From Isoetes taiwanensis (taxonomy: Eukaryota > Streptophyta > Lycopodiopsida > Isoetales > Isoetaceae), in contig JAJEKV010000031.1 in NCBI GenBank assembly GCA_021234155.1, positions 14,501,748 to 14,565,747 on the forward strand: a stretch of 64,000 nt of DNA, given 5' to 3'. Under the pieces are notes generated by a model. That model did not search any database. It was given only the letters and a program-made list of their open reading frames with translations, and had not been told where the DNA came from. A program made the translations under genes and the position numbers. Numbering within the stretch: the first letter of the stretch is position 1; each line of letters opens with the position of its first letter. This document shows, piece after piece, positions 16,950 through 52,641 of the stretch.

Positions 16950-17945
16950 GACCGGGCTTTCAGATATGGGACTTTGGCCTGAAGCGTACATTATATCGTG
17001 TGCTGGTCCAAACAGTTTTGCTCTATGGGTGTGAAGTATGGGGGCCGGGATTATTTGTAGAATCCTCGAAAAAAGGTTGAGAAAGTGCGTAGAAGTTCTT
17101 GAGAACAATTGGGTACTAAAGCTCAAACTCCATATGATATGCTGCTTGTAGAGTGTGGCATGATGCCACTAGAGGCTGAAGCCTTATGCAGAACGCTTAC
17201 ATATCTTTCTAAGTTGCTATTTGATATGCCAGAAGATAGCCTACCAAGGCTAGCATTAGAAGAAACAAGAGATAAGGGATGGTACTCAGATATTATGGAA
17301 TGGATGAGGAAGTGGGGGATGGACATTCATGGTATACGTGAGAATAAGGACAATCTAAGAGGGTGGGTGCATGAGCACCTCATTAGAAGAAACTGGAGAG
17401 TCCCGGAGACAAAAAAACATTTCTACAGACAATATATAAATCCCACTCTCCAAGAGGCCAAATACCTCAAGGAAGGTGTGTCTTTTGGTGCCAGACAGAT
17501 GATAAGCAGGATGCGGCTTAGCTCCCACAGGCTTGGGGTTGAAGTAGGACGTTGGAGTAACATTCCCCATGAATTGAGATTTTGCAAAGTGTGCAATATG
17601 GGAGAAGTAGAAGATGAATTACATGTCATCGTAAGGTGCCCGGCATACTCAGGAATTTGAGATAAGTACAGTATCCATTCAAACTCTTTGCTGGAATTCT
17701 TTGATATGCCTGGACATCACATTGGGAAATACTTGAAGGAAATATTGATGCGAGAGAAAACGATTCGAGTATTAAAGATTGTAATGTTATACATGATGAG
17801 AGATGGGAAGAGTCTAATGCATTCTTGTCAGAAGATGCATTAGAGGATATCTTTTATAACGTTGAGTATGTACATTGATCGTCTCATAGGCCTGGTGGTC
17901 TACAGACGTAATAAATACAACATATCATTTCATTTCATTTCATCT
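16950..17945 (+). mobile_element. LINE family B, copy 1 (5'-truncated)
   Basis: The last ~1 kb of a family B LINE. It carries the family 3' end: a hairpin at 17888-17901 (AGGCC-TGGT-GGTCT), the flanking pair CGTCT/AGACG, AATAAAT, then (CATTT)n and directly a (TC)n tract. The 5' end is lost near 16950 within the post-polymerase region. Copy 2 begins immediately beyond the (TC)n(TG)n tract, giving a head-to-tail pair. Confidence 0.85.
16960..17858 (+). pseudogene. LINE family B ORF2 C-terminus (copy 1)
   Basis: Begins about IWDFGLKRTLYRVLVQTVLL (frameshifted from the remainder), then an open frame 17109-17660. This holds GTKAQTPYDMLLVECGMMP and the knuckle CKVCNMGEVEDELHVIVRC followed by PAY, matching copy 2. 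A TGA follows SGI at 17658-17660, and after another frameshift the ending NAFLSEDALEDIFYNVEYVH matches the copy 2 terminus. Endonuclease and polymerase domains are absent. Confidence 0.85.
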
Positions 17946-18074
17946 CTCTCTCTCTCTCTCTCTCTCTCTCTCTCTCTCTCTCTCTCTCTCTCTCTCTCTC
18001 TCTCTCTCTCTCTCTCTCTCTCTCTCTCTCTCTCTCTCTCTCTCTCTCTCTGTGTGTGTGTGTGTGTGTGTGTG
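17943..18074. repeat. (TC)n(TG)n tract joining LINE copies 1 and 2
   Basis: About 108 bp of TC repeats then 24 bp of TG repeats. On its left is the (CATTT)n tail of copy 1, on its right the ORF1 start region of copy 2 within about 5 bp. Confidence 0.95.
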
Positions 18075-18078
18075 AAGG

Positions 18079-19490
18079 CGCTTGGGATAGCGAGACCTAA
18101 AAAGGATGTGGAGAAATCTGGTGCTGGTGGTCCCAGGAGTGGTTCTGCCACTGTAGTTACGTCCAAATCAGATGTGAGCCCCAAGGAGAATGATAAAAAA
18201 TCTGGAAAACTTGGGTCTGCAGGGCCGGATTCAGAGATTGAAAAGCATGGGTCTGATGTGTCTGCTGGAAAACATGGAAAATATGGGTCTGCAGGGTCGG
18301 ATTCAGAGATTGAAAAGCATGGATCTGATGTGTCTGCTGGAAAACATGGAAAATATGTGTCTGCAGGGCCGGATTCAGAGATTAAAAAGCATGGGTCTGC
18401 TATGTCTGCTGGAAAACATGGGTCTGCGGGGCGGAATCGAGGTTTCGTAGGTAGAAAAGTCTCGTTGGTCTCACAGTAGAAGATATGTCAGAAGATGGAG
18501 ATATGTCTGCCGTAGAAGATATGTCTGCGCAGGAGTTGTTGGATGCTGGACTTGCTCAAATCGGCACAGCCGGAAATGCCAAACCAGGTGGGCTTATTGC
18601 AGCAAGTTCCAAACATAAAACTAAAAAGGCAACATGCTCTATCACAGACAAACAGGTCGAGAATGCAGGTAGACAGACCGAGACTGCAGCTGGTGGAAAT
18701 TCTGAACTATGTGGTAGCCCTGGTTCTTGCATTGCCATGGCATCCTCTTTGGGATCCGCCGCTTTAATCGAAAGGTCCGTTAAAAACCAACCGTAATTGG
18801 TGAATACAAAGACTAAAAGCACTTGTTTGCAGCTATTGAGCATATGAGAGAAGCAGTGGACGGTTCTGTGCGCACAGTGAAGATATCCATGGAGCAAGCG
18901 GTTCAAGGTATGATGCATGATTTGAAAAACTTTCTTCTTGCTCATGTACAATCTGAAATAAATAGATGTCAAACACATATGCTTAATGAACTTGAGCAAT
19001 TCAAAGCACTGATGCGATCCGAGTTTGAGCAATTTAAGCATGATATGAGTAATAAAGCTCCAGAAGCTGCAAGCAGGCCGCATGATATCTCTGAAATTAA
19101 AGATCAGTTTGAAGCTTACAGGGAAGAACAAGAAAAGAAAGCATATGACGTATCTGAAATTAAAAATCAGTTTGAAGCCTACAGGGAAGAACAAGAAAAG
19201 AAGGCAAGGGCACTGAATATTCGTATACTTGGCATGCCGGAGGTTGCTAAAGAAAATACTAAGCAGATGGTTGAAAATTTTCTTGAAGAGAAATTGCAGA
19301 TTGAGAACGCAGGAATCATGGAAGCCTTTCGCATTGGAAAAGAGAATAGCAATGGCAGACATATTATTGTAAAATTCAGTAATCGGGAAAACAAATTGCA
19401 AGTGCTTAGGAAACGTGCAAGCTTGAAAGGTACTTCAGCGTTCATCAATGAGGATCTAACTAAAGCGCAGTTGGAGGAGCATAAATATCT
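18079..19490 (+). pseudogene. LINE ORF1 (L1-type), broken, copy 2
   Basis: The protein starts with the family signature ARPKKD (compare MGKPKK and MGHPKK in the other copies), but the ATG is destroyed. A Ser/Gly-rich N-terminus with 24-residue repeats runs to a stop at 18479. Two further frames follow: 18485-18796, and 18823-19500 with a long heptad-type segment (FEQFKHDM, FEAYREEQEKK duplicated). Then comes an RRM-like core, ALNIRILGMPE, and a C-terminal domain with GRHIIVKFSNRENKLQVLRK and FINEDLTKAQLEEHK. This order (coiled coil, RRM, C-terminal domain) is that of L1 ORF1p (Transposase_22 type), an RNA-binding trimeric chaperone. The last ~35 residues present in copy 4 are missing, cut by the insert. 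Confidence 0.85.
18213..18431 (+). repeat. 72-bp in-frame minisatellite in ORF1
   Basis: Units begin at 18213, 18285 and 18357, with a partial fourth at 18420; the third is 9 bp short. Each unit encodes SAGPDSEIEKHGSDVSAGKH with small changes. It is absent from ORF1 of copies 3 and 4. Confidence 0.9.
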
Positions 19491-52200: not shown

Positions 52201-52540
52201 GGTGTGGAGGTAGGGAGATGGGCGAACATCGCTCATGATCTTAGACAATTGTAACTTGTGTAGTGACGGTGTGGGTGGAGGATGAGGCTCATATCTTACT
52301 TTGTTGCCGCGCTTATTCGGACTTAAGAGTCATACATGGGATCAGTGCTACCTCCCTTGAGGAGTTCTTTTTACCCGGGGGGCATCCATTGGGGGTATAT
52401 TGTTGACATTCTTAAACATAGAGATGCTTGTTTGAAAAATCAAGGTAGGTCACGAGATTGAGATAGAGAAGCCCAAAGGTGTGTTACTCTCGGTGAGACG
52501 ACCGATGACTTGTTTTATAATTTTGAATGTAACTTGTAAA
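49228..52540 (+). pseudogene. LINE ORF2, heavily degraded, copy 4
   Basis: The endonuclease begins RLVCWNVNTLKSSKI, with FFLETCEHEEKALPD and LLGDFNGHTGNH (49276-49749), then SVVDYVIAKP and SSDHVPLLIEL (49676-50224). A 13-bp duplication (TGAATGTTTTGTA, 50208-50233) shifts the frame. The polymerase is in pieces: VNRVVPLHKSGD, GFRPKNST, AVFVDFSKAFDMVN, GVKQGVLCKPTLFGLF, LLLYADDIVLLSRS. The post-polymerase part after 51460 is fragmentary, and the knuckle region (about 52255-52310) is recognisable only by alignment. More than ten lesions suggest an older or faster-decaying copy than copy 2. Confidence 0.88.
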
Positions 52541-52595
52541 CGCCTCATAGACACGGTGGTCTCAAGACGGAATAATAGATTTCATTTCATTTCAT

Positions 52596-52641
52596 ATCTC
52601 TCTCTCTCTCTCTCTCTCTCTCTCTCTCTCTCTCTCTCTCT
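52596..52641. repeat. (TC)n tract, left part
   Basis: About 46 bp of TC repeats after the (CATTT)n tail of LINE copy 4, ending at the left TIR of the Harbinger element. The TC repeat resumes at 56617. Confidence 0.95.

Follow-up and report, generated by a model that had tools for sequence, protein, structure and literature searches.

The window, a stretch of 64,000 nucleotides of Isoetes taiwanensis DNA, contains four LINE copies and the pyrimidine tracts that adjoin them (Table 1). As the original prediction had claimed, the (CATTT)n tails of all four copies meet (TC)n or a C/T tract, all three copies that carry ORF1 begin beside such a tract (at ~18077, 42742 and 47947), and copies 1 and 2, like copies 3 and 4, have one tract in common. 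The start of copy 2 was set from genome matches opening at query base 3-4. No LINE end was seen by eye further left of the TC-rich tract preceding copy 3, and stretch R was taken as a single element from its ends alone. The assignment of all four copies to one family did not hold: where BLAST aligns pieces of them, copies 1-4 are merely 64-81% identical.

Table 1. Features of the window, with positions counted from its first nucleotide.
Feature	Position	Strand	Remarks
Copy 1 (subfamily B1), 5'-truncated LINE with 3' stem-loop and (CATTT)n tail	16964..17942	+	left end without TC
(TC)54 (17943-18051), then (TG)12	17943..18074	+	common to copies 1 and 2
Copy 2 (subfamily B2), ORF1 region to 3' stem-loop and (CATTT)5	18077..25185	+	
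ORF1 fragment, copy 2	18817..19500	+	weak Pfam L1 ORF1 match
Kinase-like stretch inside copy 2	about 19.8-21.45 kb	+	
APE-type endonuclease region, copy 2	21652..22287	+	PF03372, E=8e-7
ORF2, copy 2, reverse transcriptase, YADD	22272..25118	+	PF00078, E=1.5e-33
(TC)~47 (25184-25278), then (CA)52	25184..25381	+	right of copy 2
25-bp TC-rich repeats and (CT)59	42573..42741	+	left of copy 3
Copy 3 (subfamily B3), ORF1 through tail	42742..47894	+	broken frames
Degenerate C/T tract	47895..47946	+	common to copies 3 and 4
Copy 4 (subfamily B4), 5' leader, ORF1, endonuclease, tail	47947..52596	+	later frames broken
ORF1, copy 4	48112-49206	+	
Endonuclease, copy 4	49210-49746	+	
(TC)22	52597..52641	+	right of copy 4
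Stretch R, inverted ends (TGCGT..GGCCACATGCT / AGCATGTGGCCAACGCA)	52642..56616	.	between (TC)22 and (TC)24
(TC)24	56617..56664	+	right of stretch R

Copies 2-4 have separate ORF1 frames, unlike the single-ORF RTE clade, and an APE endonuclease and a reverse transcriptase (PF03372, PF00078) are present, as in the plant L1 clade. The L1-type ORF1 profile PF02994 (Transposase_22) matched one of the three ORF1s, that of copy 2, below the cut-off (E=0.012), and a regular-expression scan of the three open ORF1 stretches, copy 2's being incomplete, found no CCHC knuckles. Close to its C-terminus, the ORF2 of copy 2 carries C-x2-C-x9-H-x4-C; an HMMER profile search of this 948-aa ORF2, whose filters discard most matches above about E=0.1, listed no match to an RNase H family. 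Against NCBIfam, ORF2 gave generic reverse transcriptase matches and noise and nothing else. Among PDB matches, R2 and L1 gave similar scores, and the endonuclease of neither copy 4 nor copy 2 matched a PDB entry.

We analyzed what lies beyond the 3' ends of 90 copies from the four subfamilies. These loci were best-scoring search matches and not a random draw, taken from the tops of the lists with a few passed over (30 of 40 scored matches for B1; 20 of 41, 20 of 40 and 20 of 40 listed matches for B2, B3 and B4), and one of them, L009, is the window's own copy. At least five TC units were entered by 65 of the 90 ends (64 by script, L098 by eye); a further 13 met 3-4 TC units only, 11 met no TC, one entered (CA)41 (L115), and none entered GA. 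As a control, 12,000 random positions were drawn from 60 loci (L009-L068), which are TC-enriched since 30 were chosen by LINE similarity and 30 by the pattern of tail plus TC; at least five TC units came next at 265 positions, other units at 8 and GA at none. Furthermore, 1.658 Gb of sequence holds 4,000 (TC)n tracts of at least 12 units that end in C and a non-T base. Thus, measured against the control and the rarity of tracts, 3' ends enter (TC)n far above chance, and across the 90 ends and 12,000 control positions the orientation of the element relative to the TC strand is fixed at the 3' end. The specificity is strong and not absolute, because 11 of the 90 ends lack a TC run and one lies in (CA)41. 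Genome-wide, the exact tail followed by (TC)6 occurred 372 times and the same pattern read backwards never; tail ends in the matching register followed by a non-A base numbered 717 (backward control, 11), of which the 372 make up about 52%. Of the 71 joins classed by script among the 90, 69 read ATTTC/TCTC or TTTCA/TCTC (the slash marks the join), with the two registers side by side within each subfamily. LINE tails built of other units, (CACTT)n, (TTTC)n and (TATTC)n, are likewise followed by TC.

On the opposite side, 47 of the 50 5' ends that were sampled had a C/T tract no more than 30 bp upstream, compared to 269 of 20,000 random window positions. The sample comprised matches opening close to the first base of the query (B2, B3) or within its first 80 bases (B4); 8 of 16 such B3 matches were taken, and L003, whose match begins at base 267, was dropped. 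Three positives (L139, L141 and L231) and one of the three negatives (L234, the others being L004 and L133) were scored by eye, and the positives include L005/L129, a single duplicated site with a degenerate CTT-type tract only. This and the other duplicated sites (L016/L024, L135/L138 and L142/L145) were kept in the counts, and 3' and 5' ends were sampled mostly on different copies. The left neighbour, classed by script in 14 cases and by eye in the remainder, was a LINE or SINE for 24 of the 50 5' ends, R for 4 and neither for 22. Since 26 of the 50 thus have no recognised LINE or SINE at their left, head-to-tail stacking is best read as a by-product of the (TC)n preference, not as a requirement. 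A LINE of this group is encoded in 38 of 111 right flanks. Of these 38, 16 have a sense start no more than 20 bp from the tract, with start points spread over the element, and three are antisense (L073, L074 and L088). Among 11 5'-truncated B1 copies, a tract was present at the left of 5 and absent from 6.

The same (TC)n tracts also hold a tRNA-like SINE (SINE1) with a similar 3' stem-loop and a candidate tRNA-like head containing a B-box-like GTTCGAACC (by eye). Scored by eye, 19 of 20 SINE1 3' ends run into TC, and the left side is TC-like in 13 of 20 and without a tract in 7. For truncated copies and SINEs, TC is therefore the more constant neighbour at the right. The expectation of (TC)n on both sides of nearly every copy agrees with the sampled 3' and 5' ends and fails for the six truncated B1 copies that lack the left tract. 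The 3' ends of SINE1 and SINE2 show a stem-loop and a GACGTAA-like stretch, resembling the LINE end. A double stem-loop is predicted from folding one LINE end, SINE1 and SINE2 individually, together with one inner-stem pair that across 55 LINE ends was A-T in 39, G-C in 4, G-T in 2 and unmatched in 10. An RNAalifold consensus fold of 43 LINE 3' ends gave no structure, perhaps owing to a gappy alignment, and at this energy of 0.0 covariation in the 3' stem-loop is not shown. This double stem-loop, located ahead of the tail, is probably the RNA end that is recognised, and the SINE would imitate it in outline.

Sites that an element has not interrupted bear on the origin of the tracts. Repeat T is uninterrupted in 20 copies, five with (TC)48-69 and 15 with about 3-8 TC units in a TC-rich context. 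Where T is filled, a LINE sits at the left edge of the tract (L017) or the order is T-(TC)n-SINE1-(TC)n-T (L176), and the flanks of both are 77-91% identical to those of the empty L205. Seventeen further stretches of interrupted T, two of which (L211 and L220) may be the two ends of a single T copy, held LINE junctions in 11 cases, SINE1 in one, R in one and other sequence in 4 (by eye). A second family, V/S, is empty in L154, which reads V-(TC)70-S, and its occupied sites are filled from the left side (L228) or from the right side (L025 and L109). The empty sites of both families are paralogous, not orthologous, and (TC)n is present in them. Thus, (TC)n predates insertion and is neither leader nor tail of the element; insertion splits an existing tract, and the copy leaves no TC tail of its own. 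In 10 copies without TC at the left, no target duplication beyond the tract was found (mean shared-word length 4.5 for matched and 4.48 for mismatched flanks). Many non-TC flanks with ordinary target duplications had been named as evidence against targeting; non-TC flanks occurred at the 11 3' ends and at the left ends of truncated B1 and SINE1 copies given above, and duplications beyond the tract in none of the 10 copies compared. The claim that this LINE group targets (TC)n is accordingly supported from the 3' ends, the 5' ends and the paralogous empty sites, where (TC)n was present beforehand as predicted. The idea that the (TC)n tail of an earlier copy is a renewable target survives in that the tract stays available, and is corrected in that the tract was already there and is merely split.

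Together, these data are best explained if APE-endonuclease LINEs, accompanied by one or more tRNA-like SINE partners, use target-primed reverse transcription to insert by preference where (TC)n already exists, a reading to which we give a probability of about 0.88. A nick made by the endonuclease in the (GA)n strand would free a ...GAGA-3' end, which would pair with the element RNA where its (CAUUU)n tail ends in U and C; reverse transcription would begin at this paired end, and the 5' end would be joined within the tract or at its left edge. The leftover tract stays usable, and later copies thus stack head to tail.

A variant of this explanation, compatible with it and inseparable from endonuclease specificity by sequence alone, attributes the preference to primer-template annealing alone, with a non-specific endonuclease and any nick of pyrimidine-rich DNA that offers a GA end able to fit the UUUC tail. 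The short TC with which sites lacking a long tract often start (13 of 90) and the two registers that make up nearly all classed joins fit such annealing, whereas the (CA)41 insertion, the 11 non-TC joins and the TC that follows tails of other units do not; we regard annealing as the sole determinant as possible yet rather doubtful. It is improbable that (TC)n forms part of the RNA tail of the element itself or arises by slippage in reverse transcription, the element thereby creating the microsatellite. The absence of left TC from 7 of 20 SINE1 and 6 of 11 truncated B1 copies, with TC more constant at the right, would suit an own tail, and the part of PMC2887409 on RTE elements of Lepidoptera supplies a precedent; we rejected it on the (TC)n already present at paralogous empty sites of T and V/S, the lack of duplication beyond the tract, the two join registers of each subfamily and the C/T tract that also lies left of 47 of 50 5' ends. 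More improbable still are chance, an assembly artefact or later growth of short TC motifs beside elements. Because 15 of the 20 T copies without an insertion have short runs of about 3-8 TC units, expansion does occur in T, but the other five hold long tracts with no element inside, the strand is fixed, with GA at none of 90 3' ends, the controls reach about 1-2%, and the published assembly was built with Nanopore long reads, according to a section of PMC8566536; chance was rejected on tract rarity and on the 3' and 5' controls. Least credible of all, and likewise rejected, is (TC)n as part of the LINE RNA's 5' leader, which would account for the tract upstream of 5' ends but is contradicted by 5'-truncated copies that directly follow the tract from many scattered internal start points, by SINE1, which follows it too in 13 of 20 cases, and by the free variation of the tract in length and composition.

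Most target-specific transposable element families fall in three LINE groups, as portions of PMC4640811 state, and the LINEs of flowering plants are L1 and some RTE according to passages of PMC3747384. In the open-access literature searched we found no microsatellite-targeting LINE in plants or Isoetes; the (TC)n-targeting habit is known from animals and was not found for plants there. We lean slightly towards the view that land plants hold an old, diversified LINE group (~64-81% identical where aligned) that kept (TC)n targeting through its radiation and has its own SINEs. If true, no earlier target-specific LINE lineage would, to judge from the literature searched, have been described in land plants, and (TC)n tracts would be shared landing pads that are split and not consumed, giving rise to nested retroelement stacks. 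Such a plant system, with a SINE at the same site, would allow a natural comparison of the ways in which APE nucleases acquire sequence specificity, and would show transposable elements sheltering in microsatellites. A sample of 20 TC tracts, drawn from the first 100 listed places and confined to contigs C1-C100, included 8 with a LINE or SINE 3' end at their left (by eye); nested retroelements may enclose many of this genome's (TC)n markers.

Kibi, which targets (TC)n, and Waldo are microsatellite-specific LINEs of the R1 clade of animals, in which ORF1 carries CCHC knuckles; these were not found in the ORF1 stretches of the present group. Togen of fish inserts in (TG)n and is placed among NeSL-related families, and some HERO families are microsatellite-specific, according to parts of PMC4640811 in which NeSL and HERO are listed with restriction-like endonucleases, in contrast to the APE type here. 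These animal elements resemble the present group in having a simple-repeat, multicopy target, whereas the host here is a plant, a lycophyte. With plant L1, as described in passages of PMC3747384, the group shares ORF1 and an ORF2 with APE endonuclease and reverse transcriptase, and the same passages describe a conserved 3' stem-loop in one plant LINE lineage. It differs in the (CATTT)n tails of all four subfamilies, in place of the usual though not universal poly(A), in strong (TC)n targeting with a SINE in the same tracts, and in yielding no match to RNase H, a domain reported for plant L1 in a passage of PMC4640811. The RTE elements of Lepidoptera likewise have 3' ends that regularly adjoin a microsatellite; however, the part of PMC2887409 concerned describes a single ORF without separate ORF1 and a repeat that is the element's 3' UTR and is generated by it, whereas here ORF1 is present and the microsatellite pre-exists at paralogous empty sites. 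Finally, the likeness of the SINE1 and SINE2 ends to the LINE end recalls the stringent type of LINE/SINE partnership, of which passages of PMC3747384 give only three pairs for flowering plants, and the partners here additionally have a microsatellite target in common.

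The original prediction placed four LINE 3' ends, three 5' starts and two shared tracts in the window, and all were found again in its sequence. The four copies, which typify subfamilies B1-B4 with (CATTT)n tails, are mutually divergent (64-81% identity in aligned BLAST pieces) and their reading frames are broken. Copy 2 matches an APE endonuclease (PF03372) and a reverse transcriptase (PF00078, E=1.5e-33) and carries a C-x2-C-x9-H-x4-C motif; no RNase H match was obtained for this copy. A broken receptor-kinase-like gene, perhaps a retroposed pseudogene, separates its ORF1 from the endonuclease; the kinase domain scores E=1.3e-24, an RCC1-like repeat matches below cut-off, 79 bp are tandemly duplicated, and (TATTC)6 comes next. 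Elsewhere in the window, a 387-bp array (TRF unit AAGAAAG) has close by an (ATTCT)8 run, whose unit resembles that in the tail of a different LINE family. Genome-wide counts cover an assembly of 1,658,258,908 bases in 1110 contigs; the published Isoetes taiwanensis assembly comprises 1658.30 Mb in 204 scaffolds and 909 contigs (1113 in total, N50 17.40 Mb; PMC8566536).

We analyzed 3' junctions at 90 loci drawn non-randomly from the best-scoring matches: 30 of 40 scored B1 matches (802 candidates; the window copy included) and 20 each of the 41 B2, 40 B3 and 40 B4 matches listed. At 65 of the 90 (64 by script, one by eye) the element ran into (TC)n of at least five units; 13 entered 3-4 TC units, one entered (CA)41 and 11 had no TC, while GA followed the 3' end at none of the 90. 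Among 12,000 random positions in 60 loci, half of which had been picked via the tail+TC pattern, at least five TC units occurred at 265, another unit at 8 and GA at 0. Genome-wide, the exact tail plus (TC)6 occurred 372 times (backward control 0). Tails of the same register with any base but A next to them, where the pattern's final base likewise had to be other than A, numbered 717 (backward control 11); thus, about half of same-register tails meet (TC)6. Related LINE 3' ends with other tail units, e.g. (TATTC)n, (TTTC)n, (CACTT)n and (CATTC)n, likewise enter TC.

If (TC)n is the target, it was predicted to flank copies on both sides, and this was borne out at the 5' ends. A C/T tract (12 or more bases that include 4 or more TC, no more than 30 bp away) adjoined 47 of 50 (19 B2, including window copy 2, 8 B3 and 23 B4; three scored by eye), compared to 269 of 20,000 control positions in the window. 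On the far side of the left tract, 24 cases showed the end of a LINE or SINE, four showed R (a window stretch with inverted ends) and 22 some other sequence, partly judged by eye. The proposed head-to-tail stacking is therefore common but dispensable.

We then compared filled and empty sites, all of them paralogous. Repeat T was found from the flanks of L017, and a search with both flanks joined gave 15 copies matching both halves uninterrupted, the others being gapped or matching one half only. No insert was present in the 20 copies fetched (those 15 and five gapped), which held about 3-8 TC units within a TC-rich context in 15 cases and (TC)48-69 in five. In L017 a LINE occupies the tract's left edge and in L176 the tRNA-like element SINE1 lies within the tract, with TC on both sides; the flanks of these two match the empty copy L205 at 77-91% identity. 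Scored by eye, 17 further stretches of interrupted T copies showed LINE junctions in 11, SINE1 in one, R in one and none of these in four (L210 empty, L215 without a tract, L216 and L217 with no recognised element). Among those with LINE junctions, L218 closely duplicates L017, and a single T copy may account for both L211 and L220 as its two ends. In a second family, LINE-free L154 reads V-(TC)70-S, the V side is joined to a B4 5' end in L228, and the S side to LINE 3' ends in L025 and L109 (matched pieces of 49-198 bases, 80-92% identical). The expected (TC)n at empty sites is thus present in both families. A further repeat with a (TC)n tract, its left flank ending ...GGCATAAAAAGCAAAAC, carries a B4 5' end in two copies and none in one.

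Together, these data support well a pre-existing (TC)n as the insertion target of this LINE. A rival reading, which stems from RTE elements that make microsatellites (PMC2887409), has a non-TC target and (TC)n supplied as the element's tail; the lack of any target duplication beyond the right tract in 10 copies without left TC argues against it. A TC leader in the element RNA cannot account for the truncated copies that stand behind (TC)n. We took the right-hand flank of the first TC stretch following a LINE 3' end, 111 flanks from 120 loci; tblastx showed coding sequence of this LINE group in 38 (three antisense). Of these 38, 16 start no more than 20 bp away in the sense direction, at varying positions along the element, and 13 of the 16 follow at least five TC units. 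Among 11 truncated B1 copies with the 5' break inside the fetched DNA, a left C/T tract was present in five and absent in six.

For insertion into existing (TC)n, the fixed orientation at 3' ends places the primer end in the GA strand. The script classed 71 of the 90 joins (34 ATTTC|TCTC, 35 TTTCA|TCTC, two of another type). Every subfamily has joins in both main registers, and CATTT units number 0-8. This suits a join formed afresh at each insertion, in which a slipping tail would pair with the target over a short stretch. Copies without left TC may have inserted at the left edge of a tract, like the one in L017, or may have lost left-hand sequence when the 5' end was joined, and specificity could come from the endonuclease or from primer pairing.

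Conversely, we sampled 20 tracts of at least 12 TC units, in even steps through the first 100 of 4,000 (contigs C1-C100 only). By eye, seven had a LINE 3' end at left, one a SINE1 3' end and one a possible end (L160); since most had no LINE end there, TC tracts also occur without LINEs.

SINE1 (~180 bp) occupies the same tracts as the LINEs. In 20 of 40 scored copies (328 candidates), judged by eye, the 3' side entered TC in 19 and the left was TC-like in 13, one degenerate. Its end GACGTAAAAAATACA is similar to the LINE end GACGTAATAAATACAACA; each folds into an outer stem around a small hairpin, an outline shared by a second SINE. We infer that the LINE mobilises these SINEs. R (~4 kb, inverted ends TGCGT..GGCCACATGCT / AGCATGTGGCCAACGCA), between (TC)22 and (TC)24, is perhaps a DNA transposon also inserting in TC tracts. 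Near-identical copies of GGATCTGATAGACTTGTTGGTCCCCATGGATG follow TC or CA tracts and may represent another short element, a stem-loop with a TTCAATTCA tail.

Positions and loci of individual features
Feature	Window position	Loci
AAGAAAG array	13230-13616	
(ATTCT)8 run	13744-13785	
Kinase-like gene in copy 2	~19829-21440	
R	52642-56616	
R-like ends adjoining TC		L161, L163, L167, L168, L225, L242, L247
SINE1 type		L011:1909-2096
Control loci, 3' ends		L009-L068
3' end into (TC)n scored by eye		L098
3' end into (CA)41		L115
Antisense LINE-coding right flanks		L073, L074, L088
LINE 3' ends with other tail units		L006, L131, L134, L136, L137, L159, L173, L223
Repeat with left flank ...GGCATAAAAAGCAAAAC		L153, L231, L243
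GGATCTGATAGACTTGTTGGTCCCCATGGATG copies		L041, L115, L127, L153 (short spacer between), L171

Kibi is a LINE of (TC)n. Target-specific LINEs fall mainly in three groups, and the fish element Togen sits in (TG)n (PMC4640811); LINEs of flowering plants belong to L1 and in some cases to RTE, and three SINE/LINE pairs are described among them (PMC3747384). No plant case of a microsatellite-targeting LINE was found in the open-access literature searched, and the Isoetes element appears to represent, in a new plant form, a habit known from animals.
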